This document shows positions 15,219-45,188 of a DNA stretch of 64,000 bases, in pieces. The DNA is from Fictibacillus nanhaiensis (lineage in GTDB: Bacteria; Bacillota; Bacilli; Bacillales; Fictibacillaceae). The stretch is from positions 930,001 to 994,000 of the forward strand of contig JAEACG010000001.1 in the NCBI GenBank assembly GCA_016401345.1, written 5' to 3'. Within the stretch, counting starts at the first letter, position 1; every line of letters starts with the position of its first letter. Under the pieces are notes generated by a model. It did no database searches and was not told the origin of the DNA. It saw nothing but the letters and a program-made list of their open reading frames with translations. The translations under genes and the position numbers were made by a program.

Positions 15219-15229
15219 TTGATTGCTTA

Positions 15230-16496: not shown

Positions 16497-16531
16497 AGTG
16501 TAGCCACTCCTTCGCCCTACCCCCTCTTTTT

Positions 16532-29040: not shown

Positions 29041-29051
29041 AAAGTTATGAG

Positions 29052-29546
29052 TCAAATCGTTTTATAGTACAAGATGGTTGTGTCTAATCCACCTTTTTCA
29101 TTCTTAGCGAAAAAAGGTATTCGCCCAGCCTCTTGAAAACCAAACGACTGATATAGTAGATTTGACGGATCCCCTTCCCTTGTATCTAAGACAAGTAGTG
29201 ACCGTCCAATTTCTTTTGCTCTTTGTTCTGCGTGAAGCAGCAGTTTTCGCCCGATTCCTTTTTGTCTGAACGCTGGGTGTGTCATCAGCTTCGCTACCTC
29301 TGCACGATGAGTGCCGTTTGGTTTTTTGCACAAGTGAAGCTGAATGGTGGCTGCGATCGCACCATCTATTTTTGCAACCCAAAACATGATGTCAGGACTC
29401 ACACAGCTTTTCCAAAAATCATCAGCTTCTTGTTTTTTTAGCGGAGGCAAGAATCCGATGGAAGCTCCTTCTTCTACTACTTTTATTAATAGATCAGAAA
29501 GCTCGTCTTTACATTCGTCTACATTCCGTATCTCAACAATTTCCAT
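29052..29546 (-). CDS. GNAT family N-acetyltransferase
   Basis: A 164-residue acetyltransferase. KLMTHPAFRQKGIGRKLLLHAEQRAKEIG (about 91-119) is the acetyl-CoA motif A with RQKGIG, and LYQSFGFQEAGRIPFFAKN is the last strand-helix unit. GGGGGTAAAGG precedes the ATG at 29546; the frame is open from 29600. Substrate unknown. The array of 21-bp repeats lies upstream. Confidence 0.85.
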   Translation of the reverse strand: MEIVEIRNVDECKDELSDLLIKVVEEGASIGFLPPLKKQEADDFWKSCVSPDIMFWVAKIDGAIAATIQLHLCKKPNGTHRAEVAKLMTHPAFRQKGIGRKLLLHAEQRAKEIGRSLLVLDTREGDPSNLLYQSFGFQEAGRIPFFAKNEKGGLDTTILYYKTI

Positions 29547-29620
29547 TCCCTTTACCCCCTCATCACATTGCTTTTCATTTATTTTAATACTCATTTTCAT
29601 GGAAAAGAAAGGGGATTTGT

Positions 29621-29725
29621 CGAAAATCGGATAAAAAATTTTATACGTGAAATTATGAGAGTTATCCGTGAAATTATTAACGCTATCCGTGAATATATGA
29701 GAAGTTACCGTGAAATTAATGGAGG
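29621..29725. repeat. 21-bp periodic array C (five units, TATCCGTGAAATTAT core)
   Basis: TGAAAT-type cores start at 29648, 29669, 29690 and 29711, 21 bp apart, with a divergent first unit at 29621. TGTCGAAA starts 30 bp before the first core, the same distance as in array B. A plus-strand frame (29568-29777) reads through it with heptads of the type IREIxxx, but has no ribosome site. Confidence 0.85.
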
Positions 29726-29837
29726 TTGTTTAACTTCAGGACAAGATGTTCGCGCGATATGTACAATGAAAACATGATTGTCCACATGTAGAATACACCT
29801 CTTAAAAAGTGACTAAATCCTTTTAGCTGTCAGCACT

Positions 29838-31076: not shown

Positions 31077-31258
31077 TCTACCCTTCTCTCCTTCTTTAGC
31101 ATGATTTATTAGATAGAATCTAAACTTATAAATGTCGTAATAGAACCTATAGAAAGAATACGAAAAAAACGAACAAATCGATCATTATATATATATTAAT
31201 TCACTAATTCATAGCCTTTTCCCTCTTGTTGAATACTTAAAATCCCATTATCATTGTC

Positions 31259-31285
31259 ACTCCGCTGTTGCCTATGCATATATTA
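31259..31285 (+). promoter_or_regulatory. SigK-type promoter of the coat gene pair
   Basis: AC (31259-31260), 16 bp, then CATATATTA (31277-31285), matching the SigK -10 consensus CATAnnnTA. It lies 30 bp before the first coat gene. Confidence 0.65.
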
Positions 31286-31314
31286 TTCTCGAGATTAACT
31301 TAGGGGAGGCTCTG

Positions 31315-31653
31315 ATGATGAAGCAATCAAAAAACAGCTTATTCTCACAGCATCATCCGTCACATTTGGAAAAAAAGATTGATTCGAATAACTGTGATAG
31401 CTGTATATGTGAAATATTTAGGAGACTAAACGAAGATTGTACAGATGGATGTACGGCAAATAATCAGTTTTTCTACATTCTTCCTAAAGGTCAAAATCAA
31501 CCAGTCGGCGAAACACCAATTCCTTTTCGATTTCTTAGGTTTGATCCAGAAAGTTGCTGTACATTCTTTGAAATCAGAATTGAACAAAATACTGTTACAT
31601 TGCAAGTCGCAGTTGACTGTCACGAGATCAGTGGAATCGTACCGCTTCAATAA
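31315..31653 (+). CDS. Spore coat/exosporium protein, CotY/CotZ family (first copy)
   Basis: A 112-residue Cys-rich protein of the CotZ/ExsY family, which self-assembles by disulfide links in the spore crust or exosporium. Eight cysteines include SNNCDSCICEI, the DCTDGC pair and SCCTFFEI, the last being the family's central motif PFRFLRFDPESCCTFFEI. The C-terminal VDCHEISGI is also typical. It is shorter than Bacillus subtilis CotZ (148). AGGGGAGG precedes the ATG. Followed 15 bp later by a second family member. Confidence 0.8.
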   Translation: MMKQSKNSLFSQHHPSHLEKKIDSNNCDSCICEIFRRLNEDCTDGCTANNQFFYILPKGQNQPVGETPIPFRFLRFDPESCCTFFEIRIEQNTVTLQVAVDCHEISGIVPLQ

Positions 31654-31668
31654 AGGGGAGGAGCACTT

Positions 31669-32019
31669 ATGCTAAAAAACTGTGGCTGTTCAAACCATTC
31701 AAAATGCAGTGGATGTGCATGTTGTGTTTTAAAGGAACTAGCAGAGAAACTTTCCACGAATTGTGATGCCAGTATGAATCCATCTATATTTCTTTTAAAT
31801 AAAGGAACACGGGACCCTATTCAACTTACAGGAGAATTGCAAGAAGGCTCCACTATATTTCAACTGTTGAAGTTTGATTCGAATTCCTGCTGCGCTTACT
31901 TTTCTTATATAGACGATTTAGGAATTACACGCACTTTTATTATTGATTGCAGAAATATTAGCGTCGTCGCCATCGGACCACCAGGAGTCAACGACAATAA
32001 CAACTCTATTTCATTCTAG
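31669..32019 (+). CDS. Spore coat/exosporium protein, CotY/CotZ family (second copy)
   Basis: A 116-residue paralogue of the preceding gene: seven cysteines in the first 35 residues (NCGCSNHSKCSGCACC), the central LLKFDSNSCCAYFSYI and a C-terminal IDCRNISVVAI. AAAGGGGAGGAG precedes the ATG. Both genes share the SigK-type promoter at 31259 and would be expressed in the mother cell late in sporulation. Confidence 0.8.
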   Translation: MLKNCGCSNHSKCSGCACCVLKELAEKLSTNCDASMNPSIFLLNKGTRDPIQLTGELQEGSTIFQLLKFDSNSCCAYFSYIDDLGITRTFIIDCRNISVVAIGPPGVNDNNNSISF

Positions 32020-32023
32020 AAAA

Positions 32024-32055
32024 AAAAGGAACGACATAATCCTCGTTCCTTTCTT
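32024..32055. terminator. Bidirectional terminator
   Basis: AAAGGAACGA, eight-base loop, TCGTTCCTTT with flanking A and T runs between the converging genes at 32019 and 32064. Confidence 0.8.
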
Positions 32056-32063
32056 TATATCTT

Positions 32064-33155
32064 CTATTGTTTAGCAATACACACTCTATTTCTGCCTGTT
32101 CTCTTTGCTTCATATAGTGCTTTGTCTGCGTCTTTAATCACCAAGCTTCCAATCGTTGTTGTTTCAGGAAAGTTAGATAATCCAACTGAAACCGTAATGT
32201 TCACTTCTGTGCCACTGTTTAAGAGGAATGCATGCTCTTCCACGGTTGTCCTAATTCTTTCCGCAATTTTTTTTGCTTGATCCAGTGAACAATCTACGAG
32301 TAAAACAGTAAATTCTTCTCCGCCGTTCCTGCTGACAATGTCCGTTGGCCGTGCGCATGATCTAAGGATTAATCCTAAATCTTTTAAAACAACATCACCT
32401 TCTGAGTGCCCATAAGTATCATTAATTTTTTTAAAGAAATCGATATCAATATACAGTAATGACAGCTTTTTCTTCTTTTCAAGATCTGCCATACAACTGT
32501 TAAATACCTCATCAAATTTTCTTACATTGTTTAGCCCCGTCAATGGATCGATCGTAGACTCTGCTTTATACTTATCAAACATCATCTGACTCTTAAATAA
32601 AATATGTAGTACTTGAAACGCTACATAACCTGAGAGAAACGACACGAACCAATACCCAGGAATTAAGTAAAGTAGCAACTGCGGGTCTTTAATCAGATAG
32701 AAAAATAAGAGGGTAGTTAATAGATTTGCAAAAGTTAGCATCGACCATTTTTTTATCTGATGACTCAAGTTCGTTCTTGCAATTATGATAGCAAACAATG
32801 TAATAGCGATCATCAACAAACCTGAAGTATAAGATGAGATGTTTATCCCAATTAAAAAACGCCCCACAATAACCAAAGCCATACCTACTAATGCCGGCAC
32901 TGCTCCACCAAAATAGGCTAGTAGAATAATCGGGATATGTCGAAGATCAATCAGCGTTGTACCGATCGGAATGCTGTATTGCATGAGGATATTACTGAAC
33001 AGTCCCCCTGCAACTCCTGTTGTGAGCTTTTTCTTTATAGAAGAATTCATTCTAAGCGGTGGATCTCTCTTAATTTGGGTATACAGAAACAATAGTGCGA
33101 CTAGGATTGCAAGATTAGCAAAAAGCTGTTTAACAATTATCATTTTTATCACCAT
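32064..33155 (-). CDS. Membrane diguanylate cyclase (DgcK/YhcK-like)
   Basis: Makes cyclic di-GMP from GTP. The N-terminal 190 residues form a 5TM-LYT-type sensor (five or six helices), followed by a GGDEF domain (about 200-360) with an intact RNGGEEF active site and the DIDFFKKINDTYGHSEGD metal-binding segment. The RxxD inhibitory site is absent: LRSCARPTDIVSR occupies that region. Length 363 agrees with Bacillus subtilis DgcK (359), which has the same order of domains. Single gene. Confidence 0.8.
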   Translation of the reverse strand: MVIKMIIVKQLFANLAILVALLFLYTQIKRDPPLRMNSSIKKKLTTGVAGGLFSNILMQYSIPIGTTLIDLRHIPIILLAYFGGAVPALVGMALVIVGRFLIGINISSYTSGLLMIAITLFAIIIARTNLSHQIKKWSMLTFANLLTTLLFFYLIKDPQLLLYLIPGYWFVSFLSGYVAFQVLHILFKSQMMFDKYKAESTIDPLTGLNNVRKFDEVFNSCMADLEKKKKLSLLYIDIDFFKKINDTYGHSEGDVVLKDLGLILRSCARPTDIVSRNGGEEFTVLLVDCSLDQAKKIAERIRTTVEEHAFLLNSGTEVNITVSVGLSNFPETTTIGSLVIKDADKALYEAKRTGRNRVCIAKQ

Positions 33156-33317
33156 CTAGTAAAATACCATATAATACATCCAAAAACTAACATAAATACC
33201 AACTCATTTGTTACATTTCTCTTTTTTTACCTTTAAGTAAACAAATCATTCGCACGATTTACATCATCCTTATATGATTAAGTAAAAATACTCATCAACT
33301 TAACTGGAGTGTTCATA

Positions 33318-34394
33318 TTGACAAAGCTTTTATTAATCGGTGGTGGACATGCTCACCTTTCCATTCTCCGTAGTCTTTTGCATGAAGAAATTAGTGATTT
33401 AGAAGTTACACTTATTACATCGTCAAAATATCAATATTATTCAGGGATGTTTTCAGGATTTACAGAAGGTCTTTATGACGAAGATGAAATCCGTATTGAT
33501 TTAGAGTCTTTATGCGGTCGAGCCTCTGTCTCGTTTATAGAGGACACCATCATCTCTTTTGATCCCATGCAGAAAGTGTTATTAGGGTTTTCTGGAGGAA
33601 TCTATTATTTTGATGTGATTTCTTTTGATATTGGTTCTGGTATCTCATCGGACTTAACCCAAACTGTTGGCTTGAACATTAAACCAAACTACCGCTTTAT
33701 AGAGCAGATTAAAGAATTTCGCTCAAGCGAAAACCCTGTTATTGTCGGAGGTGGTTCTGCTGGAGTAGAGCTTGCCCTATCGACATTCGCTTGGCGACAA
33801 AATCAAAGTTTGAAAAACCCGGTAACCTTGATCAGCTCCTCTCCACTTCTTCATTCTTATGGAAACAAAGCGACACAGAAAATTAGAGAAATTGCTAATG
33901 ACCATAATCTCGTATACTACGAAAATGAAAAGATAGAGAAATTGAAGAACAACATCATCATTACTGATAAGGATACAGAGATAGCGTATTCAGCAATCCT
34001 GCCCGTAACCGGACCAAAAGCAAGCTCTCTATTTAAACAAGCATTGCTTTCGACTGACAAAAAAGGGTATTTACTCGTTGATGACACACTACAGAACGCT
34101 GATTATCCGTATGTGTTTGGAGCTGGTGATTGTGTCTCTTTGGCTGATTATCCTAATCTTCCGAAGAATGGTGTCTATGCGGTTAGACAAGGACCTGTTT
34201 TATGGAAAAATATTAAGCGTTTAATCACAGGCAGACCACTAGTACCGTTCAAACCACAAAAAAAGTTCGTCTCTATCCTTTCGACCGGTGAAAAGCACGG
34301 TTTATTTACTTATGGTGATTTTGTCACTTATGGAAAATGGGCATGGAGCTTAAAGAATAGAATCGATCAAAAATTCATGAACAAACACCTTTAA
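33318..34394 (+). CDS. FAD-dependent pyridine nucleotide oxidoreductase (NDH-2/SelD-domain-like)
   Basis: A flavoprotein of 358 residues with two Rossmann units: LIGGGHAHLSILRSL at the N-terminus (the GGGHAH form is typical of the group also found fused to SelD) and VIVGGGSAGVELAL (about 140). VFGAGDCVSLADYPNLPK (about 273) is the FAD-binding end motif. GGAG is best placed for the TTG start at 33318; a GTG at 33309 overlaps it. Substrate and partner are unknown. It converges with the next operon. Confidence 0.75.
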   Translation: MTKLLLIGGGHAHLSILRSLLHEEISDLEVTLITSSKYQYYSGMFSGFTEGLYDEDEIRIDLESLCGRASVSFIEDTIISFDPMQKVLLGFSGGIYYFDVISFDIGSGISSDLTQTVGLNIKPNYRFIEQIKEFRSSENPVIVGGGSAGVELALSTFAWRQNQSLKNPVTLISSSPLLHSYGNKATQKIREIANDHNLVYYENEKIEKLKNNIIITDKDTEIAYSAILPVTGPKASSLFKQALLSTDKKGYLLVDDTLQNADYPYVFGAGDCVSLADYPNLPKNGVYAVRQGPVLWKNIKRLITGRPLVPFKPQKKFVSILSTGEKHGLFTYGDFVTYGKWAWSLKNRIDQKFMNKHL

Positions 34395-34438
34395 TTCAAG
34401 CCGCATTTTCTTTATGAAATTCTATTGATTAAGTCCTC

Positions 34439-34469
34439 AAAAAAACGAGCAGAACATTTTCTGCTCGTA
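34439..34469. terminator. Terminator at the end of the ynj-like operon
   Basis: ACGAGCAGAA, AATG loop, TTCTGCTCGT, then seven T on the minus strand; it also serves the converging gene at 34394. Confidence 0.85.
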
Positions 34470-34474
34470 CCACT

Positions 34475-35902
34475 CTATCTAAACCAACTGATGTACTTTT
34501 TTGTTAGTTTTGGTAATGTTCCGCTAAACAACTTGCTCCTCCAGTATAAATCAGCGGTTCGTTGAATAGCAGCGGCATGATTAGGATATGGATAGATCAT
34601 CTGTGAAAGGTCTCCAATTTTGCTCCCCTTTTTCATTGCAAAAATAACAGCCTGCATCCAATCACCACTACCATTTCCTATCGCATGCCCACCTAGGATC
34701 TTACCCTTCTGGTCGGTAATAATTTTTATCAATCCATCCGCCTCTTGATCTGAGATAAACCGATCAACATCTGTTAAAGGAACTTCATAAACCGAAAACT
34801 TAATTCCTAACTTTCGCGTTTCTTGTTCCGTCATGCCTATATGAAAAATCTCAGGTTGGGTATAAATATTCCAGGGAATGTGATCATAGCTCATTTTCTT
34901 TGGTACACCAAGAATTGCATTCTGAACGACAACTTTTCCTTCTTCCCCAGCTACATGTGTAAAAGCAAATTTGCCGTTAATGTCTCCGATTGCAAAGATA
35001 TGAGGTACATTCGTCTGCAACTTTTCATTTGTTGGGATGAATCCTCGCTCATCTTGAAACACCCCCGCATCATTCAGATTCAAACGTTCACTATTTGGTT
35101 TTCTACCGACAGCTAAAAGAATCTGGTCATATTCCTCTGTATATTGCTCATTACCTTTTTGTATCGTAACTCTTTTTCTTCCGTTTGATGTTATTTCTAC
35201 TTTTTTGACTTCTGAATTTAACTGAATCGTTAACTCCTTATCCAATATGGAAAGCGCTGCTTTTTGGATACTTTCATCCTCAGTTGATAGGAGTTTTTTT
35301 CCTTTTTCAACTATAGTAACTTTGGAGCCTAATCGTGATAAAGCTTGTGATAGTTCCAGCCCTATGGGACCACCGCCAATCACAACAAGCTTCTCTGGCA
35401 ATTCTCTTTGCTCAAATAAGTTTTCGTTCGTCCAAACCCCCGCTTCCTGCAAACCTTCGATCGGCGGTACGAGAGGTCGTGAACCGGCAGCAATTACAAT
35501 CCTTTTCCCGTATATCTCTTGGTCATCAACTCTCACAGTGTTTGCTGAAGTGAATGTTCCCGTTCCCTTATACAGATCGACACCTAGTGACGTAAACCGT
35601 TCATCACTATCATGCTTTTGGATCACACGTATGGATTGCTGTACGCGCTCATTTACCTTTCCTAAGTCAACAGATCCAGAAACATCAAGACCAAGTTCCT
35701 TCGCTTTGGTTCTAGCAGTAATAATATCCTTTGAAGCTTGTATAAGAGCTTTTGAAGGTACGCAACCAACGTGAAGACAGTCACCACCTAGATGCCGTTC
35801 TTTTTCTATTAGTGCGACTCTTGCGCCAAGAGAACTAGCTCCAGAAGCTACTGTAAGCCCTCCAGCACCTCCGCCGATAATGACAACATCATACTTCTTC
35901 AC
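34475..35902 (-). CDS. MerA-like FAD-dependent disulfide oxidoreductase
   Basis: Class I flavin disulfide reductase of 475 residues. GGDCLHVGCVPSK has the redox Cys pair (about 42 and 47); FAD motif GGGAGGLTVASG (10-21), NAD(P) motif VIGGGPIGLELSQAL (about 175) and AIGDINGKFAFTHVA (about 305). The C-terminus has YPYPNHAAAIQR in place of the usual HAHPT active-site segment, and the mercury-binding C-terminal Cys pair of MerA is missing, so mercuric reduction is unlikely. It is last in the operon, overlapping the CDP-alcohol phosphotransferase stop by 4 bp. Related reductases occur fused to TVP38 domains, and a TVP38 gene is in this operon. Confidence 0.8.
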   Translation of the reverse strand: MKKYDVVIIGGGAGGLTVASGASSLGARVALIEKERHLGGDCLHVGCVPSKALIQASKDIITARTKAKELGLDVSGSVDLGKVNERVQQSIRVIQKHDSDERFTSLGVDLYKGTGTFTSANTVRVDDQEIYGKRIVIAAGSRPLVPPIEGLQEAGVWTNENLFEQRELPEKLVVIGGGPIGLELSQALSRLGSKVTIVEKGKKLLSTEDESIQKAALSILDKELTIQLNSEVKKVEITSNGRKRVTIQKGNEQYTEEYDQILLAVGRKPNSERLNLNDAGVFQDERGFIPTNEKLQTNVPHIFAIGDINGKFAFTHVAGEEGKVVVQNAILGVPKKMSYDHIPWNIYTQPEIFHIGMTEQETRKLGIKFSVYEVPLTDVDRFISDQEADGLIKIITDQKGKILGGHAIGNGSGDWMQAVIFAMKKGSKIGDLSQMIYPYPNHAAAIQRTADLYWRSKLFSGTLPKLTKKYISWFR

Positions 35903-36498
35903 ATCTCTCTCTCCTTGTGTTGCAAGATTTTCTTAGCTTCAAGCAATCTTTGCAATGCTGTATAAAGTTCAATCACAAAAAATAATAATGTTATGAGCGT
36001 CAAATAATTAGAGAATAAGATCATTAGACTGAACAAGATAAAGCCTTCTGTCCGTTCAGCTAAACCTGCTTGATAGTAGAATGACTTCATGCCTTGCTTC
36101 TCACTCACTGCCCCTACTGTAAGAAAGATTGTCATCGAAACGATAATCGACACGGATAAGAGCAAAAGTGCTAGCTGTGAATCAGGGAACGCAAGCGCTA
36201 ACCCAATGATCACACTAATCTCTACAATCCGATCAAACGTAATATCTAATACAGTTCCCCAAGGAGATGGTTTTGTAAGTCGTGCCATCGAACCATCAAC
36301 TGCATCGAGAAACCCTGAAAACCATAGGACACAAACAGCTAGGATCGGTCTATCAAAATAGATCCAAACACCTGATGAAGTCCCAATGATAAAAGCGATC
36401 CAAGTAACTTGATTCGCACTAAGTCCCGCTTTCAATAATAGCTTTGCCGTACTCAGAATAGTCGGCTGCACATACTTTCTTGCATGAGTATCTAGCAT
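35899..36498 (-). CDS. CDP-alcohol phosphatidyltransferase family protein (YnjF-like)
   Basis: Integral membrane enzyme of 199 residues predicted to transfer a phosphatidyl group from CDP-diacylglycerol to an alcohol. The signature DAVDGSMARLTKPSPWG then TVLDITFDR (about 66-91) has all conserved Asp and Gly residues. Six membrane helices. The E. coli counterpart YnjF has the same neighbours and no known acceptor. ATG 10 bp after the TVP38 gene's stop. Confidence 0.8.
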   Translation of the reverse strand: MLDTHARKYVQPTILSTAKLLLKAGLSANQVTWIAFIIGTSSGVWIYFDRPILAVCVLWFSGFLDAVDGSMARLTKPSPWGTVLDITFDRIVEISVIIGLALAFPDSQLALLLLSVSIIVSMTIFLTVGAVSEKQGMKSFYYQAGLAERTEGFILFSLMILFSNYLTLITLLFFVIELYTALQRLLEAKKILQHKEREM

Positions 36499-36508
36499 AT
36501 ACTTCTCC

Positions 36509-37162
36509 TCACTTCTGATCTTCCACCGATAAGTATTGTTTGATCTGTTTTTTATATAGTACGGGAAGAACTGTAATGATAATAAATAAAATTATTGCAA
36601 TATAAAGGATGGTTGAAGTATCAGCTGCCGTGCTCGCACCTAGAAACGTATAAGCAAAAGTTCCTGGAACAATGCCTATTAATGTCCCGAAAAAGAATTG
36701 GATGCTTTTTACTTTAGACATCCCCGCTGCATAACTAATCAGATCAAAATGAAAAATCGGAATAAGCCGAAGTAGGATGATGACTAAAAATCCATTCTTT
36801 TCTAGCACGTTCTGTAATTTGTGCAATTTCCTTCCCCATCTAGATTCAATTCGACGAGCCCCTATCTTTCTTGCAGTAAAAAAGGCAAGAAGAGCGCCAA
36901 TCGTAGCTCCAGTAAGAGTAAGAATGAATCCCCACACCGGCCCAAATGCTAAACCTCCTGTCAAAGAAAGAACAGAAGCAGGAAACAAAACGAAAGGTCT
37001 AACGGAATACAATAAAACATATACGAAAGGTGCCACAGCTCCCATTGTTAAGATCCATCTACGAACTGATCGAGGAGTAACGTCTAGAACCGTTTGATTC
37101 AAAACAATGAGTGAAACAACCAAAATAACAAAAAATATAATAGAGAAAGTCGTCTTCTTCAT
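36509..37162 (-). CDS. TVP38/TMEM64 family membrane protein (YdjX/YdjZ-like)
   Basis: A 217-residue DedA-superfamily (SNARE-associated Golgi) protein. The reentrant-loop motif is LSLTGGLAFGPVWGFILTLTGATIGALLAFFTAR (about 65-98, here GGLAFGPVWGF and GATIGA), with RLIPIFHFDLISYAAGMSKV as the second conserved segment. Relatives may move lipids or couple proton gradients. It lies between the ABC ATPase gene and the phosphotransferase gene, as in E. coli, where ydjX and ydjZ are near ynj genes. Confidence 0.8.
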   Translation of the reverse strand: MKKTTFSIIFFVILVVSLIVLNQTVLDVTPRSVRRWILTMGAVAPFVYVLLYSVRPFVLFPASVLSLTGGLAFGPVWGFILTLTGATIGALLAFFTARKIGARRIESRWGRKLHKLQNVLEKNGFLVIILLRLIPIFHFDLISYAAGMSKVKSIQFFFGTLIGIVPGTFAYTFLGASTAADTSTILYIAIILFIIITVLPVLYKKQIKQYLSVEDQK

Positions 37163-37189
37163 CTCTTATTTCTCCAATCTTAACACCAC

Positions 37190-38119
37190 TTATCCTTCGT
37201 AAACCTTTACTCGTTCACCAACATTCACCTTTTCTTCAGTTGTTAGTGTAATAACAGCCTCTGAATGCTCGATAGATAAAACACTATGAAACTTTCCGTC
37301 TTGATAATACGTTTCTATCACTTCAGCACTTTTTCCATTTCGATCATCATTTCGTCCCATCTTAAGACAGCTTACGGGGATGAAGCGCTCTTTTGTCCAT
37401 ATGCCACCTTGAAGAAACGAAGCTACAAATGAATTAACTGGAGATTCATATAAAACATGTGGACTGTCGAGCTGTTCGAGCTTACCTTCATTTAACACGG
37501 CTACACGATCTCCAAAAGCCATCGCTTCCTCCAGATCATGCGTGACGAACAAAACGGTTATGTTTTCCGATTTTAATAGATGTTTGATCCATCTCCTCGT
37601 CTCTTTTCGAAGTTCCGTATCAAGACTTGAGAAAGGTTCGTCCAATAAAAGAACTTTAGGATGTACGATCAGAGACCGTGCCAAAGCTGCCCGTTGTTTC
37701 TGACCACCAGAAATCTCATGAGGAAAACGAGATTCTAAACCTTCTAAGCCCACTCTTTTCATCATTTCTTTACTTTTATCATATCTCTTATTTTTACTGA
37801 CTTTTGCCATCTTTAGTCCGAAAGCTACATTTTCTAAGACGTTCATGTGTGGAAATAGAAGTGATTCTTGGAACATATAGACTACCGGCCTTTGTTGTGG
37901 AGGTACGTTTGTTAAATATTCACCATCAATCTTGATCTCTCCAGTGTCTGTCTTCTCTAATCCAGCTATCAGTCTAAGTAAAGTAGATTTCCCAGTACCC
38001 GAAGGACCGACTACGGAAATAATCTCTCCCCTTTTTACACTCAGTTGGTTCACGTTCAGTACTTCTTTATCTTTGTAAACTTTTCTGATGTCACTCAATT
38101 CGATAAAATGAGATTCCAT
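37190..38119 (-). CDS. ABC transporter ATP-binding protein (YnjD-like)
   Basis: ATPase of an importer, 309 residues. Walker A GPSGTGKST (about 37), signature SGGQKQR (about 136), Walker B LLLDEPFSSLD (about 157) and switch His in VTHD (about 196). A C-terminal TOBE-like beta domain (about 235-309) is present, as in CysA/FbpC-type ATPases. Three bp separate it from the permease gene. It energises the fused permease together with the lipoprotein encoded first in the operon. Confidence 0.85.
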   Translation of the reverse strand: MESHFIELSDIRKVYKDKEVLNVNQLSVKRGEIISVVGPSGTGKSTLLRLIAGLEKTDTGEIKIDGEYLTNVPPQQRPVVYMFQESLLFPHMNVLENVAFGLKMAKVSKNKRYDKSKEMMKRVGLEGLESRFPHEISGGQKQRAALARSLIVHPKVLLLDEPFSSLDTELRKETRRWIKHLLKSENITVLFVTHDLEEAMAFGDRVAVLNEGKLEQLDSPHVLYESPVNSFVASFLQGGIWTKERFIPVSCLKMGRNDDRNGKSAEVIETYYQDGKFHSVLSIEHSEAVITLTTEEKVNVGERVKVYEG

Positions 38120-38122
38120 TCT

Positions 38123-39796
38123 TCACCTCGGTTGTTTTGGAATAAGTAGTCTTAAAACACCTTCGATTAACAGCCACACAGCTATAGGTATCATGGCAAA
38201 TAAAATCGAAAAACTTGCGATCACTGCATCATTTGTTGTTTGAAAATAAGGAAAGAATAAGATTGCCATCGTGTTAACTTCTCCACCGCCGATAAGTGCG
38301 GTTAAAAAATACTGTCCGAGTGAAATCACAGTAACAAGAAAAACAACACTTCGGATACTTGGAATGAGCTGTGGCAAATAAACATTTCGAAATATCCCCC
38401 ATGCACCAGCACCAAGAGAAACCGCAATTTCTTCCTGTCTTTTGCCGATTCGCTCAAATCCTGCGCGCAACACTTTTATCGTGTAAGGAAGAGTTGGTAA
38501 TAGGTGGACAATGACTACTCCTGTCCAATGATTAGCAATTCCAAGCTTAATAAAAGTTAGATGTACACCAAGCGCAATTACAATAGAAGGTATTAAGATA
38601 GGTGACAATAATAACGTCTCTACCACACTTTTACCTTGGAAGATATGAAACGCGAGACCCTTAGCAGCTGGCAGTCCAATCAATAGATTTAGCAATAATA
38701 CTAGCAAGCTGATGCCTAACGAAGTATAGATCGCCTCTGTAAATTTTGAGCCATGCCATAACATTTCGTACCAGCCTCGGGTCGTAAATGAGCTTGGAAA
38801 GAGCTCGCCATATCCCCACCTTTGGACAAGACTAGTCAAAACTAGTATGAATATAGGCAGAAACGTCATTCCTAACATAGTAAAAAACAGGACTCTTGAA
38901 TACTTACTATTTTCTGCTTTTAAATCGTGAAATGATCCAGAGCTTTGAGATAAGTGGATCCTTCCTTTCCTAGTGAACACGTATGTCAAAAAGACAATAA
39001 GAACGATAAATATTGTCAAAAGAAACATGGCCGCAAAAGCGTACGGCTGTTTTGTCCAATCTGATCCAAAGAACCATTCATAGCTGATGACAGGAATCAT
39101 CTTAGGATAGGTTGCTCCTAGGAGTGCAGGAACTTCATAAGCGGAAACAACAAAAGCAAAGATGATAAAAAACGTCTCTAACATGACAGGAAAAACGTAC
39201 GGCCGCTCAACATGCCAGAAGACATCCCATCTTCTCCCTCCAAGTGTATACACAAGCTCTCTTTGAGCGTTCGATAGTTGTTCATATACGGGAAGAAGCA
39301 TCAGAATGACAAAAGGTACCTCTTTCCACACGTAAGTGATAATGATACCTATTCCAAAAGAATCTTTAAACAAAACAGGAAACTCATTCGGCAGCTTAAT
39401 TAGCCCCATTCCATTTAAAAACGAAGAAATATACCCCGTTTGGGAAAAGAGAAGAAACAGCATATATCCCCAAATGAAATGTGGAAAGACCATTGGCATC
39501 CAGGCGATTAACTTTGGAAACTTATCTTTTAGAATCGGATATAGTGATCTGACAATGATCAGCCCGATTAGAATGGAAAGAATCGTTGATATAAAAGCAA
39601 TTCGAAGACTGTATAGGATAGATGTGATAAAGATTTCATCACTAAACAGCTCTCGATAAACGCTTAAGGTTGGTTGATTGTAGTACTTAATACTCTCTAG
39701 AAACGCCATTACTATTCCATAGCCGAGGAGAAGAATGGTTATTAGAACAGCTGGAGCCAAAAGTACATAAGGATTACTTGTTCTGAACCACTTCAT
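38123..39796 (-). CDS. Fused two-domain ABC permease (YnjC-like)
   Basis: 557 residues with about twelve membrane helices: two ThiP/FbpB-type permease halves joined in one chain. The EAA loops are LGGRRWDVFWHVERP (about 185) and LGAGAWGIFRNVYLPQL (about 460). The same fused architecture is found in E. coli YnjC. The start overlaps the substrate-binding protein gene by 23 bp, implying translational coupling. Substrate unknown. Confidence 0.85.
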   Translation of the reverse strand: MKWFRTSNPYVLLAPAVLITILLLGYGIVMAFLESIKYYNQPTLSVYRELFSDEIFITSILYSLRIAFISTILSILIGLIIVRSLYPILKDKFPKLIAWMPMVFPHFIWGYMLFLLFSQTGYISSFLNGMGLIKLPNEFPVLFKDSFGIGIIITYVWKEVPFVILMLLPVYEQLSNAQRELVYTLGGRRWDVFWHVERPYVFPVMLETFFIIFAFVVSAYEVPALLGATYPKMIPVISYEWFFGSDWTKQPYAFAAMFLLTIFIVLIVFLTYVFTRKGRIHLSQSSGSFHDLKAENSKYSRVLFFTMLGMTFLPIFILVLTSLVQRWGYGELFPSSFTTRGWYEMLWHGSKFTEAIYTSLGISLLVLLLNLLIGLPAAKGLAFHIFQGKSVVETLLLSPILIPSIVIALGVHLTFIKLGIANHWTGVVIVHLLPTLPYTIKVLRAGFERIGKRQEEIAVSLGAGAWGIFRNVYLPQLIPSIRSVVFLVTVISLGQYFLTALIGGGEVNTMAILFFPYFQTTNDAVIASFSILFAMIPIAVWLLIEGVLRLLIPKQPR

Positions 39797-41015
39797 TAAC
39801 CCAATTCTCCTTCAGCCAAGCAACGTACTCTGAATCTATTTCTGGCTGCAAATATTTTTTTAAAGTTTCAGCGGGTAATACAGATTCTCCACGTTTGATG
39901 GTTTGAAGTTTCTTTTGATCTGCCGCTGAAAGTCGAGCTGGATCAAGGGACATATTTTCACCCCAAAATTCCGAGTCTAACTTTGTTAACTGAGCCTCAG
40001 GAGATAGCATAAAGTTAATAGCCGTCATCGCACCTTCTTTGTTGGGACTATTAAAAGGAATCGCTAAAAAGTGAGCATTTCCCAAAGAACCTGATTTCAT
40101 AACAAACGATCTTGTTGTTGCGGGGAATACACTTTGTTTCATTAATTTCTCTGCTCGCGCCTCGTTATAACCCATCGTCATATATACTTCGCCTTTGCTG
40201 TACAAACGATCTAGTTCTGTTAAATTATTCGGATATGTCTTCCCTTCTCTCCATAAATAAGGTTTGATCTCGTTCAAATAATCCCACATCTTCACACTAT
40301 TTTTCTGGGCAAAATCCTCTTCATAGCCATTGTCCAAAATGTTCTTTACGTTTCCACTAGATTCATAAAATAATTGACGAACAAAAGCATTACCTGTAAA
40401 GTCTGCAGGATCAGGGTATGTAAATTTTCCTGGATTTTCTTTTACCCATTGAGCTAATTCTTCAAATGATTGAGGTGGATTTGGCACCTTTTCTTCATCA
40501 TATTGATAAACGAACTGCACTTTTCCCCATGGTGCTTCTAAGCCCTCTGTTTTTGTTCCAAAATCATATTGAATATCTAATGACTCAGCATCCACATATT
40601 TTTTGTAGTTAGGCAACTTATTGACAAAGGGACCAAATAATAGCCCATTGTTTTTTGCATTTTTGAAATTCTCGCCATTGATCCAGATGATATCCATGTT
40701 TCCTTCATCTTTCCCTGCTCTTTTTTCATTTGATAGCTTTTTTAAGAATTCTGGTGCATCCATCGGTACTCGCTTCAATGCAATGTTATATTCTTTCTTT
40801 AACCGTGGAGCGACCCAATCATCCATATAACGATTGATCCCTGTGTCTCCACCCCACATGTACATTCTGACTGTCTTGTTCTTAGTGGTCTCTTCAATTT
40901 CTCGCCAATCTTTTTTCAATATGGCTTTAGATTCTTTTGCTGCATCCGTTGATGGGGAACATGCTGACACGAATAAATACAGCATTATCCAAACCAACAA
41001 TCTCATTTTTTTCAT
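39774..41015 (-). CDS. ABC transporter substrate-binding lipoprotein (YnjB-like)
   Basis: First gene of the six-gene operon. A lipoprotein signal peptide with lipobox VSAC (Cys about 19) precedes a 390-residue type II periplasmic-binding fold related to E. coli YnjB (COG4134): MYMWGGDTGINRYMDDWVAP near the N-terminus and PEAQLTKLDSEFWGENMSLDP near the C-terminus. Its ligand is unknown; the family is near thiamine and spermidine binders. GGAGGGTGAG precedes the ATG at 41015; an ATG at 41066 opens the frame but has no ribosome site. I see no clear operator in the 200 bp upstream. Confidence 0.8.
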   Translation of the reverse strand: MKKMRLLVWIMLYLFVSACSPSTDAAKESKAILKKDWREIEETTKNKTVRMYMWGGDTGINRYMDDWVAPRLKKEYNIALKRVPMDAPEFLKKLSNEKRAGKDEGNMDIIWINGENFKNAKNNGLLFGPFVNKLPNYKKYVDAESLDIQYDFGTKTEGLEAPWGKVQFVYQYDEEKVPNPPQSFEELAQWVKENPGKFTYPDPADFTGNAFVRQLFYESSGNVKNILDNGYEEDFAQKNSVKMWDYLNEIKPYLWREGKTYPNNLTELDRLYSKGEVYMTMGYNEARAEKLMKQSVFPATTRSFVMKSGSLGNAHFLAIPFNSPNKEGAMTAINFMLSPEAQLTKLDSEFWGENMSLDPARLSAADQKKLQTIKRGESVLPAETLKKYLQPEIDSEYVAWLKENWVNEVVQNK

Positions 41016-41240
41016 CGTATACTCACCCTCCACTAAGCTAACGTTACTTCTCTTCGTTTGGTTCATTCTTTTTATTGGTAATTTATTGTTTCCCTTTTTT
41101 TGTCCAACTCACGTACAAATATTGAAGAAATTTTGTATTATTTTTTATGTATGTATTGAAAGCTATGAATCTCGAAAAAATGATAAAAAAAAGGCTATTT
41201 TCTTAAAATTGTTGCTTTTAAGTCTTTATTATTTTCTTCT

Positions 41241-41587
41241 TTGACATTGATTGTAGTGGAAGGTGCGTGCCTACCACATGAGATACTCCTTGCAAGGCAT
41301 GCGACGAGGAAGCTTACTACGAAGCATCACTTGTAGACGCAGGAGCAAGGAACTTCTTAAGGCGGGCAGTCAGAAAAGTGGAAGTGGCTCGTCCAGCCCC
41401 GACAAGCAAAAGGTGAATGGGCTAGGAAGGCGCATTTTGCCTTATTGACCGTTCACCTTTTGACCTCGAGGGGCTAGCCACTGCAACTAGCCAGGTGAGA
41501 CACTTAAAAGTGAAACGTACGACTGTGGCTCACCGCCTGCCCCGCGGAAAGCGAGCATCTGCAACGGAAATCAAAAACTGTCAAAAG
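41241..41587. repeat. Bacillus-type intergenic repeat element, interrupted
   Basis: Starts TTGACATTGATTGTAGTGG and ends with CCCGCGGAAAGCGAGCATC and CAACGGAAATCAA before CTGTCAA; the ends are imperfect inverted copies. The right half closely resembles the common Bacillaceae repeat that ends CCGCGGAAAGCGAGCATCTG. GC content is well above that of the neighbours. The middle is split by another element (41384-41492). The 650 bp between 41016 and 41667 hold no gene; open frames inside the element are spurious. Confidence 0.65.
41384..41492. repeat. Second repeat element nested in the first
   Basis: GTGGCTCGTCCAGCCCC and AAAAGGTGAATGG on the left pair with CCGTTCACCTTTT and GAGGGGCTAGCCAC on the right, forming a long imperfect inverted repeat with an inner AAGGCGCATTTTGCCTT. 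The GGCTCGTCCAGCCCC/CCTCGAGGGGCTAGCC pair is another repeat type common between Bacillaceae genes. Confidence 0.65.
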
Positions 41588-41626
41588 CAACAATGAATAC
41601 GAAAACAGCCTTTAGAAAAGAGCGTA

Positions 41627-41658
41627 AAAAAAGAGGCCTTTGACAAGGACCTCTTTTT
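41627..41658 (-). terminator. Rho-independent terminator
   Basis: AAAAAGAGG and CCTCTTTTTTT arms with a TCCTTGTCAAAGG loop region after the stop at 41668. Confidence 0.85.
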
Positions 41659-41667
41659 CAAAACCTA

Positions 41668-42936
41668 TTAAGCTTTTACCGCATGAGCACCTTGAGTAGC
41701 CATAAATTCCTCGATTTCTTCTACCTCACGGAAAATATCTTTAGATAAGTTTTCGAATCCATCTTCTGTTACCAAGATGTCATCCTCAATTCGAATACCG
41801 ATCGCTTCTTCTTCGATATAAAGCCCAGGCTCAATTGTAATCACCATTCCAGGCTCTAAAATGCGGTCTTTGTAAGAACCCACATCATGTGTATCAAGTC
41901 CAAGGAAATGGCTCACACCATGATAATAATACTTAGAGATCTCATCATCATTTTGGATTAAACCGATACGTCTGCATTCTTCTGCTAACACTTTTTTCGT
42001 ATGATTATTAAGTTCGGCAAAGGCAAGACCTGGCTTAATGATAGCCGTCGTTTCTTTTAGCGCTTTAAGTACGATATTGTAGAGAACCTTTTGACGTTCT
42101 GTAAACTTCCCATCTACTGGGAAAGTATAACTGATATCCGCGTTATAATAATTCTTTTGTGCTCCTAGATCGAGAAGCACGAGCTCACCGGGATTCGTTT
42201 GCGCGCTGTTATGCTCATAATGAAGGATCGTAGCGTTTTTTCCGCTAGCCGTAATCGTCTTAAATGCGAAATCACGCACACCGTTTGATTTTAAAGTAAA
42301 GTCAAAATGTGCTTCGAGTTGATTTTCTTTCATTCCAGCTTTCGCGTGTTTGAGCACATTATAGATGCCTTCTTTCGTAATGGAGATCGCTTCTTTAATC
42401 TTTTGAATCTCTTCTGTCGTTTTGAACACACGCAGTTCAGCGACTTCAGGATATACGTTGTGAATCGTCACATGCGGATAATGCTCTCGAATATGTTTTG
42501 CGAATTGTGATGTTTCAGATGGGGCACCAGACCATCCACGGCGTTCTAGATCTAAACAAACGTGCTGAGCTTGATTTGTAAAGAATTGACTGGCAACAAA
42601 CGACTCAAAGCTATCCACATATTTAATATCTTTTATCCCAGATTGATGTTCTGCTTCCTCTTTAGACACGGTTTTCCCGACCCACTTTTCCATGACTGGA
42701 TCAGCTTTTACGATAAAAAGTGTTTCTTCAAATTTTCCACCGCTCTTCTTTAGCAAGAGGATCACGTTTTGTTCCGAAATCCCAGTTAGATAGTAAAAAT
42801 TTCGGTTTGGTGTGAACGGATATTGTTCATCTGCTGATTTTTGGGGAGCTTTTCCTGCAAAAAGAATGGTTAATGATTCATTCGGCACCAATTCTTTTAA
42901 TCTACTACGATTACGTTCAAAAAAATAAGACTCCAT
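41668..42936 (-). CDS. Xaa-Pro aminopeptidase (aminopeptidase P family, M24B)
   Basis: Removes N-terminal residues that precede proline. The N-terminal creatinase-like domain (about 1-170, TPNRNFYYLTGI) is followed by the pita-bread domain with all five metal ligands: Asp in LLDLGAQ, Asp in NADISYTFP, His in HGVSHFLGLDTHD, Glu in TIEPGLY and Glu in IRIEDDILV. Length 422 is normal. GGAGGATCC precedes the ATG. Confidence 0.9.
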   Translation of the reverse strand: MESYFFERNRSRLKELVPNESLTILFAGKAPQKSADEQYPFTPNRNFYYLTGISEQNVILLLKKSGGKFEETLFIVKADPVMEKWVGKTVSKEEAEHQSGIKDIKYVDSFESFVASQFFTNQAQHVCLDLERRGWSGAPSETSQFAKHIREHYPHVTIHNVYPEVAELRVFKTTEEIQKIKEAISITKEGIYNVLKHAKAGMKENQLEAHFDFTLKSNGVRDFAFKTITASGKNATILHYEHNSAQTNPGELVLLDLGAQKNYYNADISYTFPVDGKFTERQKVLYNIVLKALKETTAIIKPGLAFAELNNHTKKVLAEECRRIGLIQNDDEISKYYYHGVSHFLGLDTHDVGSYKDRILEPGMVITIEPGLYIEEEAIGIRIEDDILVTEDGFENLSKDIFREVEEIEEFMATQGAHAVKA

Positions 42937-43052
42937 GTGGATCCTCCTTAAAATAATTAAAATCGACTGATTAGTTTATTTATATATATCTATAGTATAA
43001 AGATTTTTCCATAGCATTAACAGCTTTTTTCAGAATTTTATAAATGCATTAC

Positions 43053-43532
43053 CTATACTTTCTGATAGGTATCTAACAAATGTTCTTCAATAAAAGAATT
43101 GATCTGTTTGTGTTTAACATACTCCTGAATATGATTTTGTACTCTCGGATACAAAATGATATGTTCCAAATCTTCTAGAGGAATCCATTTTACGCCAGTT
43201 TGGTACGGATCTGGCTTATCCGGTAATCTAGGTTCGGAGTCTCCAACCCTGTTACATTCAAACATCATTCCTAGTGAATGTATCGTTCCGTATCTATTTT
43301 TTGTCAGATGCGGCGCATACTCATAAGTGAACGCGAGTGGACCAACATCTACATCAATGGATGCCTCTTCTCTCGCCTCACGTTTTGCTGCTTCTTTTAC
43401 AGATTCATTTGCTTCAACACCACCTGACGGTAAATTATAATGAAGTCCATTCTCATCATGAAACTCAATTAAAAGAATCGCATCATTTTCAATAATTAAA
43501 GAACCTGCTCTAACACGAATAGGATAGCTCAT
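43053..43532 (-). CDS. Nudix hydrolase, second of a tandem pair
   Basis: A 159-residue hydrolase with Nudix box GGVEANESVKEAAKREAREEA (about 37-57, GX5EX7REXXEE). Its ATG follows directly after the TAA of the upstream Nudix gene (43533), so the two are coupled. The substrate, a nucleoside diphosphate linked to another group, is unknown; the C-terminal extension (KHKQINSFIEEHLLDTYQKV) is not in the first copy. Confidence 0.85.
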   Translation of the reverse strand: MSYPIRVRAGSLIIENDAILLIEFHDENGLHYNLPSGGVEANESVKEAAKREAREEASIDVDVGPLAFTYEYAPHLTKNRYGTIHSLGMMFECNRVGDSEPRLPDKPDPYQTGVKWIPLEDLEHIILYPRVQNHIQEYVKHKQINSFIEEHLLDTYQKV

Positions 43533-43895
43533 TTACACAACCTCCCTATTATTTATCACCATTTCAACCACAGGTCTTGAAACATCATCAAAATACATAT
43601 CATCTTGTAGGTCGATCCAGCGTACATCAAGTATGTCTTCATCGTCCTCGATCGTAAGCGTTCCTGAGATTAGTTCACAAAGAAATGCTTGTTTTTCTTT
43701 TCTTTGAATCAGTGGTTTTATTATTTTTACGGTATAGCCCGTTTCTTCCAATACTTCTCGTATACATGCTTGTTCGAAAGTCTCGCCAGGTTCAACTCCC
43801 CCACCCGGATAGTTCCATACAATGTCCCCGCGTTTTACTTTTTGTTTTACTAATAGCACCTTTCCATCAGAAATAACAACACCTTGCGCTAACAT
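43533..43895 (-). CDS. Nudix hydrolase, first of a tandem pair
   Basis: A 120-residue MutT-like protein with the box GGGVEPGETFEQACIREVLEE (about 31-51) in full. GGGGGAG is placed for the ATG at 43895; the frame is open from 43931, inside the pepT terminator. Likely a housecleaning nucleotide hydrolase. Confidence 0.85.
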   Translation of the reverse strand: MLAQGVVISDGKVLLVKQKVKRGDIVWNYPGGGVEPGETFEQACIREVLEETGYTVKIIKPLIQRKEKQAFLCELISGTLTIEDDEDILDVRWIDLQDDMYFDDVSRPVVEMVINNREVV

Positions 43896-43918
43896 CTTTA
43901 CTCCCCCTAGTGAAAGAT

Positions 43919-43951
43919 AAAAGCTAACCAATACAAAGTTGGTTAGCTTTA
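43919..43951 (-). terminator. Rho-independent terminator after pepT
   Basis: AAAGCTAACCAA, loop CTTTGTA, TTGGTTAGCTTTT on the minus strand, between pepT and the Nudix pair. Confidence 0.85.
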
Positions 43952-43955
43952 TAGG

Positions 43956-45188
43956 TTACGCTTCCTGCTCAAACAACTGCACAAGTTCAATGATAACTTT
44001 AGTTGCTTTGATCATATTATCGACCGAGATATATTCGTGACGGCCGTGGTAGTTTTCTCCGCCTGTAAAGATATTTGGAGTCGGCAGACCCATGAATGAC
44101 AGCTGTGATCCGTCAGTACCGCCTCGAATGGGTTTAATGTTTGGTTCTATGTTTAGCTTTTTCATCGCTTGAGAAGCGAGATGAACAATCTCTTTTACAG
44201 GTTCAATCTTTTCTTTCATATTATAATACGTGTCGTTCATATCTAATTGAATCTTATCTTGTCCATACTTTTCTCGCAGTTCGTCCACGACCTCTTGCAT
44301 TCTATCTTTTCTCTTTTGAAAAAGTTCCTTGTCATGGTCGCGGATGATATATGAAATATCCGTTTGTTCTACGTCACCTTTCAGACCCGTTAAATGATAG
44401 AACCCTTCATAGCCTTCCGTATGCTCGGGCGCCTCTTCAACAGGAAGCTTACCATTCAGTTCCATCGCAATTTTCGCTGCATTAACCATCTTATTCTTTG
44501 CAGATCCAGGGTGAATGTTCTTTCCTAAGATACGAATTCTAGCACTAGCCGCGTTAAAGCTCTCATACTCTAATTCACCTAAAGGGCCGCCATCCATCGT
44601 ATAGGCATACTTTGCTCCAAACGCTGCCACATCAAATTTATGAGGACCGCGTCCGATCTCTTCATCCGGAGTGAAAGCCACTCTGATCTTTCCATGCTTA
44701 ATCTCTGGGTGTTCGATCAAATACTTCATCGCAGTCATGATTTCAGCGATGCCCGCTTTATTATCTGCACCGAGCAATGTTGTGCCGTCTGTTGTGATCA
44801 ATGTATGCCCTTTATAATCTTTTAAACTAGGAAAGTCATTTGGAGACAATTCGATATGTAAGTCTTCGTTTAAGATAATCGTTTCTCCATCATAGTTTTC
44901 AACAATCTGTGGTTTAACGTTCGTTCCGGTAAAATCAGTAGCTGTATCTACGTGTGCAAGAAACCCGATGACCGGGATTTCCTTATCGGAATTGGATGGT
45001 AATGTCGCCATAACATATCCGTTTTTGTCGACTGTTACTTCTTCCATACCAATTTCTTTTAGTTCCTCAACAAGCATGTTTGCCAGAGTCCACTGACCTT
45101 CTGTAGATGGAGTCGTATCACTTCTTCCATCAGATTGTGTATCTACTTTTACGTATGTAATAAACCGATCCATTATTTCTTGTTTCAA
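43956..45188 (-). CDS. pepT: Peptidase T (tripeptide aminopeptidase)
   Basis: Cytoplasmic M20B metallopeptidase releasing the N-terminal residue of tripeptides. Residues agree closely with PepT: HVDTATD (His79, Asp81), [14 protein letters not shown] (about 140), [10 protein letters not shown] (Glu pair about 173), [17 protein letters not shown] and the C-terminal RGGTDGS and [11 protein letters not shown]. Length 410 fits. ATG at 45188, with AGGAGT well upstream. Own terminator at 43919. Confidence 0.95.

Follow-up and report, generated by a model that had tools for sequence, protein, structure and literature searches.

Introduction

In Escherichia coli K-12, ydjXYZ-ynjABCD has been listed as an operon directly activated by FNR (PMC3688515), and FNR binding has been reported at ydjX (PMC2690998). 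One of its parts, YnjBCD, was called an uncharacterised transport system in a pangenome paper (PMC9207381). DedA proteins of the COG0398 group, to which YdjX and YdjZ are related, have been proposed as phospholipid scramblases, for bacteria as a proposal only, and disulfide-oxidoreductase fusions were reported as the commonest fusions of this group (PMC10127716). No function for YnjBCD or YnjF, and no description of a module comprising them, was found in the open-licence literature, which was covered mostly at the level of titles and abstracts. Here, we analyzed a related operon of Fictibacillus nanhaiensis, located at positions 34475-41015 of a 64,000-nucleotide stretch of contig JAEACG010000001.1 (referred to below, at its full length, as the window). 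Our results strongly support the view that its six genes, together with a seventh gene convergent with them, form one functional module.

Composition of the operon

The operon, its partner gene and the hairpin between them are arranged as follows (sampled genomes and loci are designated below by G and L numbers, respectively).

39774..41015, minus strand: YnjB-type substrate-binding lipoprotein (SBP), match to profile NF008633
38123..39796, minus strand: fused two-domain ATP-binding cassette (ABC) permease, YnjC-like, PF00528 twice
37190..38119, minus strand: ABC ATPase, YnjD-like, PF00005
36509..37162, minus strand: TVP38/VTT-domain membrane protein, PF09335, 105 bits
35899..36498, minus strand: CDP-alcohol phosphotransferase (CDP-OH), YnjF-like, PF01066
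34475..35902, minus strand: flavin disulfide reductase (RED), similar to MerA and lipoamide dehydrogenase (LPD), PF07992 and PF02852
34445..34468, minus strand: terminator-like hairpin closing the operon, 10 pairs followed by TTTTTT
33309..34394, plus strand: flavin adenine dinucleotide (FAD) oxidoreductase (NSELD), TIGR03169-like, 277 bits, convergent with the operon

The genes are transcribed in the order SBP, fused permease, ATPase, TVP38, CDP-OH and RED, and all six were found on the minus strand in the order and at the positions given by the initial annotation. They are tightly packed: the first two genes overlap by 23 bases and the last two by 4, and the three junctions in between have gaps of 3, 27 and 10 bases, respectively. 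The SBP start at 41015 chosen in that annotation is preferred over the longer open reading frame (ORF) start at 41066, as a GGAGG sequence upstream and a lipobox-like VSAC motif downstream both agree with it. The hairpin begins six bases past the RED stop (34468-34445); a scan of the region found 7 such hairpins against 6.7 expected, so that the argument for it is one of position. The closest named genome was that of Fictibacillus phosphorivorans, whose SBP is 95% identical.

Membership of the first three proteins in a YnjBCD-type ABC importer is clear: SBP scored 477 bits against NF008633 (cut-off 203), and YnjC- and YnjD-like subunits are encoded in the same operon. Among the 25 best NCBIfam matches for each protein, the other five operon proteins stayed below the respective cut-offs. 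BLASTP matches in E. coli were YnjB (36%), YnjC (26% over 248 aa), YnjD (39% over 183 aa), YdjZ (30%) and YdjX (27%) for TVP38, and YnjF (28%) for CDP-OH. The proposed match of the first five genes to the E. coli ydjXZ-ynjBCDF genes therefore held at 26-39% identity, with the difference that ynjF lies on the other strand there.

Co-occurrence of the importer and two flavoproteins

We examined 299 genomes of the window's order, of which 97 contained YnjB and 202 did not. RED was counted at 399 bits or more (from a list extending down to E 1e-80) and NSELD at 170 bits or more, both thresholds corresponding to gaps in the observed scores. RED was present in 93 of the 97 YnjB-containing genomes and in none of the 202 others. 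Weaker RED proteins (289-313 bits) were found in one YnjB-containing genome (G623) and in three genomes with YnjB-like SBPs below the cut-off (G471, G552 and G580); their inclusion changed the counts to 94/97 versus 3/202. NSELD occurred in 81 of the 97 and 12 of the 202 genomes, respectively. The same trend was observed within the 11 genera that included both kinds of genomes (RED, 39/41 versus 0/34; NSELD, 36/41 versus 4/34). Among the nine genomes of the window's own genus, RED was confined to the two YnjB-containing genomes, and NSELD was also present in two that lack YnjB.

It might be argued that unrelated genes were brought under a shared promoter by chance or local hitch-hiking, and gene order indeed differs between lineages. 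However, in the 93 genomes with both genes, YnjB and RED were within 15 kb of each other in 59; in 7 they shared a contig at a distance of 0.6-3 Mb, and in 27 they were on different contigs, some of the latter probably being contig breaks (in G591 and G484, RED lies at a contig edge). Since RED follows YnjB even where it is distant or on another contig, operon hitch-hiking alone is insufficient. Together with the repeated TVP38-RED fusions and the recurrence in several phyla described below, this makes such an explanation extremely improbable. Five of ten regions with unlinked RED placed it beside TVP38 (L224 and L225) or DUF1499 (L220, L221 and L229). In addition, a short YnjB remnant with several stops was observed in a genome without RED (G436:C5:369372-369482), nine of the ten sampled genomes of whose genus have both YnjB and RED; as expected, this remnant fits joint loss of the two genes.

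NSELD, which was overlooked by the initial annotation, is thus the seventh partner of the module. It scored 277 bits against TIGR03169 (SelD N-terminal-like FAD oxidoreductase; cut-off 310), and its relatives spanned that cut-off (L219, 369; L215, 346; L089, 310; L212, 287). It is located inside the operon in Alkalicoccus (L089) and in plasmids of Citrobacter (L212), Rhizobium rhizoryzae (L216) and Pseudooceanicola (L219), and near the operon in Falsirhodobacter (L215) and Rhizobium sullae (L218). The original idea of one conserved system with RED as a real member was upheld, and its membership of six genes had to be revised, as NSELD is a seventh and the redox part is exchangeable (see below).

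Distribution and gene neighborhoods

SBP homologs above the NF008633 cut-off were detected in 30 of 398 Bacillota genomes, compared with the 97 of 299 in the window's order. Of 33 loci fetched, 28 were clustered, L068-L072 being excluded because they were truncated or scored under the cut-off. In these 28 Bacillota neighborhoods, whose families were named from one or two representatives, TVP38 was encoded in 20 and CDP-OH in 19; a rhodanese similar to YnjE was seen in 16 and a dicluster flavoprotein of the NF045663 type (595-888 aa) in 13.

A second set of loci, hereafter the named loci, consisted of the 80 top-ranking loci out of at least 583 and was thus biased towards the window's relatives; 78 of them form the denominator, as no SBP ORF was called in L124 and L128, and RED below 100 bits was not counted. 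Within 8.5 kb of SBP, TVP38 was present in 53, CDP-OH in 52, RED in 38 and NSELD in 30 of the 78, and TVP38, CDP-OH and RED occurred jointly in 30. The window's own genome (4.28 Mb) encodes 11 VTT proteins, 4 CDP-alcohol phosphotransferases and 4 full-length disulfide reductases, and we estimated that approximately 5%, 2% and 2% of 18-kb stretches, respectively, hold one of these by chance. The observed frequencies of 53, 52 and 38 of 78 loci far exceed these values, and the linkage is therefore beyond chance. Hosts included Bacillaceae, Planococcus and its kin, Paenibacillus, Chengkuizengella, Spirochaetota and Chloroflexota. TVP38, CDP-OH and RED were found at YnjB loci in Bacillota, Spirochaetota and Pseudomonadota, RED frequently being fused to TVP38, and a Chloroflexota locus (L156) had TVP38 and RED without CDP-OH. 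Hence the claim of conservation over a very large evolutionary distance was borne out, the neighborhood survey showing that the linkage is not restricted to a few genomes.

The same six families, in some cases with NSELD, were also found on plasmid records of Alpha- and Gammaproteobacteria, it being noted that some records labeled as plasmids are chromosome-sized. Based on annotation and our own scans (three loci without a called SBP were re-read with all ORFs), 20 such YnjB regions contained CDP-OH in 16, TVP38 in 12, RED in 9 (plus a weaker one in L201), intact NSELD in 5 and pieces of NSELD in 1 (L211). Four Rhodobacterales regions (L199, L205, L209 and L217) retain only CDP-OH and YnjBCD of these families. 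The complete module, including a TVP38-RED fusion, is present at positions 3904-16840 of a conjugative plasmid of Citrobacter amalonaticus (L212), next to DUF2282, DUF692 and DoxX genes and genes for a sigma factor and a universal stress protein; its SBP is 67% identical to E. coli YnjB, and the same identity was seen in other enterobacterial plasmid records. No match to SBP was found among 50,697 phage records, and carriage by phages was rejected.

The reductase and its fusion to TVP38

RED contains only two cysteines in its 475 residues, C42 and C47, which form an intact C-x4-C motif. As claimed initially, it lacks both the C-terminal mercury-binding cysteine pair of MerA and the usual HP motif: the position of the His/Glu dyad of lipoamide and glutathione reductases (H-x-H-P-x3-E) reads YPYPNHAA. 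Two of its three full-length paralogs in the same genome carry the dyad (HAHPTFGE and HPHPSLSE), and the third falls outside the motif pattern. Its closest solved relatives were lipoamide dehydrogenases and MerA (approximately 250 bits). RED scored 363 bits against the MerA model TIGR02053 (cut-off 454) and was also below the RclA and hypothiocyanous-reductase cut-offs. In a midpoint-rooted maximum-likelihood tree with thin outgroup sampling, 49 sampled REDs formed one set (support 100/99), separate from two MerA proteins and the three paralogs. On the basis of cut-offs, cysteines and tree, identity with MerA or RclA was ruled out. Two motif classes of RED, GGDC and GGEC, were each found beside YnjB.

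The statement that such reductases are fused to TVP38 elsewhere also proved correct. Fusions of TVP38 and RED (711-721 aa) were found at seven sampled loci (L134, L202, L212, L214, L215, L218 and L219; domains Pfam-checked in L134, L202 and L218), and CDP-OH was nearby in six of these seven YnjB-adjacent cases. RED is also fused to DUF1499 in L103 (Pfam-checked), a locus from the group of Planococcus and its kin, and proteins of similar length occur in L108, L109, L112, L113, L115, L117 and L119. DUF1499 is separate and adjacent to RED in L125, as it is in the three regions with unlinked RED mentioned above. It was rejected as a member of the module, being absent from the window's own genome.

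A different function of these proteins would be in stress resistance or detoxification. Tethered to the membrane, TVP38-RED would then act much like MerA or RclA and use NAD(P)H to reduce a toxic metal, an oxidant or an electrophile, and repair or remodeling of the membrane would fall to the transporter and the lipid enzyme. Consistent with such a role, LPD and MerA are the solved proteins most similar to RED, MerA and RclA models match it below their cut-offs, and the Citrobacter copy lies beside sigma factor and universal stress protein genes on a conjugative plasmid. However, neither the missing mercury-binding cysteines and the scores below cut-off nor the position of both sampled MerA proteins outside the RED clade agree with it, and a substrate-binding lipoprotein coupled to an ABC importer suits uptake, not defence. 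We therefore consider this function rather unlikely.

Exchange of the redox component, selenium and regulation

Genes of the rhodanese, dicluster, CCG or YdjY type were found near YnjB in none of the 38 named loci with RED and in 14 of the 40 without it; they were likewise absent from all 30 named loci with NSELD. Because the two kinds of redox genes exclude each other in the 78 named loci, the redox part of the module is regarded as exchangeable. RED, with or without NSELD, was found in Bacillaceae, Planococcus and its kin, rhizobia and some plasmids, whereas many hosts of the 14 loci with the other kind were clostridial or otherwise presumed anaerobes. When the E. coli proteins YnjE, YdjY and YnjA were used as seeds against the ORFs of the 64-kb window, the part of the genome searched, no match was obtained at E 1e-5.

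There are several indications of a connection to selenium, and the system might instead serve uptake of a chalcogen (Se, S or Te) through YnjBCD or TVP38, with reduction or relay by the flavoproteins or by rhodanese and Fe-S proteins and the lipid enzyme as a side partner. NSELD resembles TIGR03169, a family named for its fusion to SelD. Fusions of NADH-dehydrogenase-like proteins to SelD are known (PMC4561486), and a role for such a protein in generating the SelD substrate has been suggested (PMC2432076). In some Bacillota loci (one representative per cluster), the model NF045663 ('diclust_near_Sec') and a selenium-associated LysR model (NF040786) were matched over cut-off, and YedE- and ExtH-type models were matched below cut-off among the same neighbors. 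In E. coli, selD is located approximately 5.5 kb beyond ynjF. Outside the window, the own-genome SelD gene contains an in-frame TGA (G000:C1:246498-247430), and the organism probably makes selenoproteins. In the phylum sample, SelD was present in 28 of 30 YnjB-containing genomes versus 234 of 368, a result that is, however, confounded by lineage. Within the order, SelD (over cut-off in 167 of 299 genomes) was found in 61/97 YnjB-containing and 106/202 other genomes (p = 0.11), and in G268, which has the same six-gene operon, even the best SelD match (E 5.9e-20) did not come near the cut-off. Moreover, a scan of 10 proteins encoded at 29838-42936 of the window revealed no recognizable selenium gene. 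Since the presence of SelD is not linked to that of YnjB within the order, we keep a selenium or other chalcogen function as a rival only, and regard it as somewhat improbable. As a separate observation, the genes after YnjBCD in Halanaerobacter (L148) and Thermohalobacter (L150) are of the TIGR04283, TIGR04282 and APH types, and genes for YedE-like and dicluster proteins lie close by.

Some features of possible regulation were also noted. In four Bacillaceae loci (L080, L084, L087 and L089), a Crp-family regulator gene (Pfam) is convergent to RED, and the SBP genes of these loci have TGTAAG-N4-[AC]TTACA-like sites. With up to three mismatches, a TGTAAG-N4-CTTACA-like site was present upstream of SBP in 16 of 47 Bacillota loci versus 100 of 940 random stretches. 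No such site was found upstream of SBP in the window or in its nearest relative (L077), and this candidate operator is therefore only a lead. Control by a riboswitch was rejected: no Rfam family reached its gathering score in window positions 29000-45000 (two sub-threshold matches were treated as chance), and the 12 matches at seven related loci (lysine, T-box, guanidine-I and nine tRNAs) included none at the SBP promoter.

The importer and the lipid-related proteins

The AlphaFold model of SBP has a predicted local distance difference test (pLDDT) value of 93, and its fold neighbors were stm0429 (best; presumably a phosphonate-binding protein), PotD, AfuA, FutA and ThiB, with query template-modeling (TM) scores of approximately 0.45-0.6. 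An attempt to read the binding pocket from this model was abandoned, there being no close solved relative. These similarities raise the possibility of ordinary nutrient uptake, of a thiamine-, polyamine- or sugar-phosphate-like compound, with the redox and lipid genes serving the general metabolism of that nutrient. The permease and ATPase resemble ThiP-, ModB- and PotA-type subunits, SBP has a weak ThiB-type match in addition to PotD, AfuA and ThiB as fold neighbors, and 8 of the 78 named loci, including six from records of sulfate reducers, have an APH-type kinase near YnjB. However, the scores were below the shown cut-offs for ThiP-, ModB-, PotA- and ThiB-type transporters, the Rfam scans gave no family above its gathering score around the operon and none at the SBP promoter of the seven related loci, and near-perfect co-occurrence with one special reductase would be unusual for a plain nutrient importer. 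Simple nutrient import is accordingly unlikely in our view.

CDP-OH has an intact DxxDGxxAR...GxxxDxxxD motif of its superfamily; D65, D68, G69, A72, R73, G81, D85 and D89 were invariant in all 73 aligned sequences, as was R184. The nearest folds to its model (pLDDT 93) were phosphatidylinositol phosphate (PIP) synthases (TM 0.66-0.78), whereas phosphatidylglycerol phosphate synthase gave 0.49-0.52. Its donor is probably CDP-diacylglycerol. TVP38 reached 22.7 of the 250 bits needed for the undecaprenyl-phosphate transporter model NF052604, so it does not belong to UptA, and its likeness to YdjX and YdjZ suggests a COG0398-type protein. Lipid-type genes were also observed at single loci elsewhere: LPG_synthase_TM, a sterol desaturase family gene, a lysophospholipid acyltransferase and PqiA/MlaD-type genes. 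PqiA and MlaD/MCE-type genes lie near a core of CDP-OH and YnjBCD in Roseivivax (L209) and Rhodobacteraceae SC52 (L217), and genes for DUF547 and DUF3047 proteins and a sterol desaturase family gene are in or beside the module in two Spirochaetales loci (L142 and L147) and in Pseudoalteromonas (L202). In the window itself, positions 29838-31076 encode one protein with a cytochrome b561-like membrane domain and a sulfite-oxidase-like oxidoreductase molybdopterin-binding domain.

A proposed pathway

From these families we infer a direction of transport, a kind of substrate and lipid product, a movement of that product and a redox reaction, which together give a tentative pathway that we consider quite possible. 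YnjBCD would import a small polar molecule, and the PIP-synthase-like CDP-OH would join it, or a processed form of it, to CDP-diacylglycerol, yielding an unusual phospholipid or lipid-anchored compound. TVP38, if scramblase-like as proposed for COG0398 proteins, could then move the lipid product across the membrane. RED and NSELD might catalyze or assist a redox step that uses NAD(P)H and acts on the compound as imported or in its lipid-linked form, RED being presumably held at the membrane in several lineages through its fusion to TVP38. Both flavoproteins would be replaced by a rhodanese, YdjY or dicluster/CCG proteins in E. coli, where the operon is activated by FNR, and in other lineages, many of which are presumed to be anaerobes. 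The earlier suggestion that the system couples an imported compound to lipid is compatible with this scheme at the level of family membership, through the CDP-alcohol motif and the PIP-synthase-like fold of CDP-OH.

A number of observations weigh against the module or the proposed pathway. The profile search gave no solved close relative of SBP, and the ligands of its fold neighbors are sugar phosphates, polyamines, thiamine or iron. CDP-OH fell short of the PIP synthase and archaetidylinositol phosphate synthase cut-offs (70/170 and 98/180 bits, respectively), and in an alignment to solved PIP synthases it has Gly in place of the second Arg of their ERPERL motif, a residue with a role in binding of inositol phosphate. 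In F. phosphorivorans (L077, 13927-14067), only the last 48 residues of TVP38 could be matched (54%); most of the protein has apparently been lost in this locus, which suggests that it can perhaps be replaced. Fourteen of the 78 named loci, several but not all of them on short contigs, lacked TVP38, CDP-OH, RED and NSELD. In the order, 4 YnjB-containing genomes lacked a strong RED and 16 lacked NSELD, and the 12 genomes noted above had NSELD without YnjB. It should also be noted that the p-values were calculated without correction for phylogeny and with bit thresholds taken from the data set itself, and that the split by mixed genera addresses kinship only in part. Finally, YdjY-type loci were also found in Bacillus sp. 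and Ammoniphilus (L098, L101 and L106), and because of these hosts the redox split is not purely one of oxygen.

A more specific version of the proposed pathway, in which the module serves to synthesize and recycle a redox compound anchored in the membrane, is doubtful, and we would put it among the less probable readings. The YnjF-type enzyme would couple the imported precursor to diacylglycerol, and TVP38 would move the product. It would be kept reduced in some lineages by RED, tethered through TVP38, together with NSELD, and in others by rhodanese and Fe-S proteins. If true, this would be a lipid-linked redox pathway of an undescribed kind.

Comparison with known systems

The individual parts of the module may be compared with several known proteins and systems. 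MerA, like RED, is a flavin disulfide reductase with a CxxxxC motif and a Tyr near the position of the LPD catalytic His; in contrast with MerA, RED has no C-terminal cysteines, scores below the TIGR02053 cut-off and forms a clade that excludes MerA in a thinly sampled tree. CDP-OH shares the CDP-alcohol motif and the fold (TM up to 0.78) with PIP and archaetidylinositol phosphate synthases, and differs from them in the replaced Arg and the sub-threshold scores given above. The pathway that we favor follows the same logic as choline import coupled to phosphatidylcholine synthase (Pcs), namely an importer combined with a CDP-diacylglycerol-dependent phosphotransferase; in the choline system, the transporter and enzyme families differ from those of the module and there are no flavoproteins.

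The reported fusions of TVP38 to disulfide oxidoreductases (COG0398 with PF07992/PF02852; PMC10127716) combine the same two domains that are encoded by separate genes in the window, and the DedA-fusion section of that paper mentions neither YnjBCD nor the phosphotransferase. Our results thereby offer a handle on the bacterial role of COG0398 proteins, which are relatives of TMEM41B.

The E. coli ydjXYZ-ynjABCDE/ynjF region is alike in having homologs of YnjB, YnjC, YnjD, TVP38 (YdjX and YdjZ) and YnjF. It differs in having the ferredoxin YdjY, YnjA and the rhodanese YnjE where the window has RED and NSELD, in carrying ynjF on the opposite strand and in the absence of a RED-type reductase among the genes annotated there. 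New in the present analysis are the addition of two flavoproteins as members by co-occurrence and the finding that lineages differ by exchange of the redox half, whereas the transporter, the lipid enzyme and TVP38 tend to be retained. The module thus defines a counterpart of the unexplained FNR-activated operon ydjXYZ-ynjABCD of E. coli K-12, and brings a set of orphan families (YnjB, YnjF, COG0398, MerA-like reductases and TIGR03169-like proteins) together in one testable pathway.

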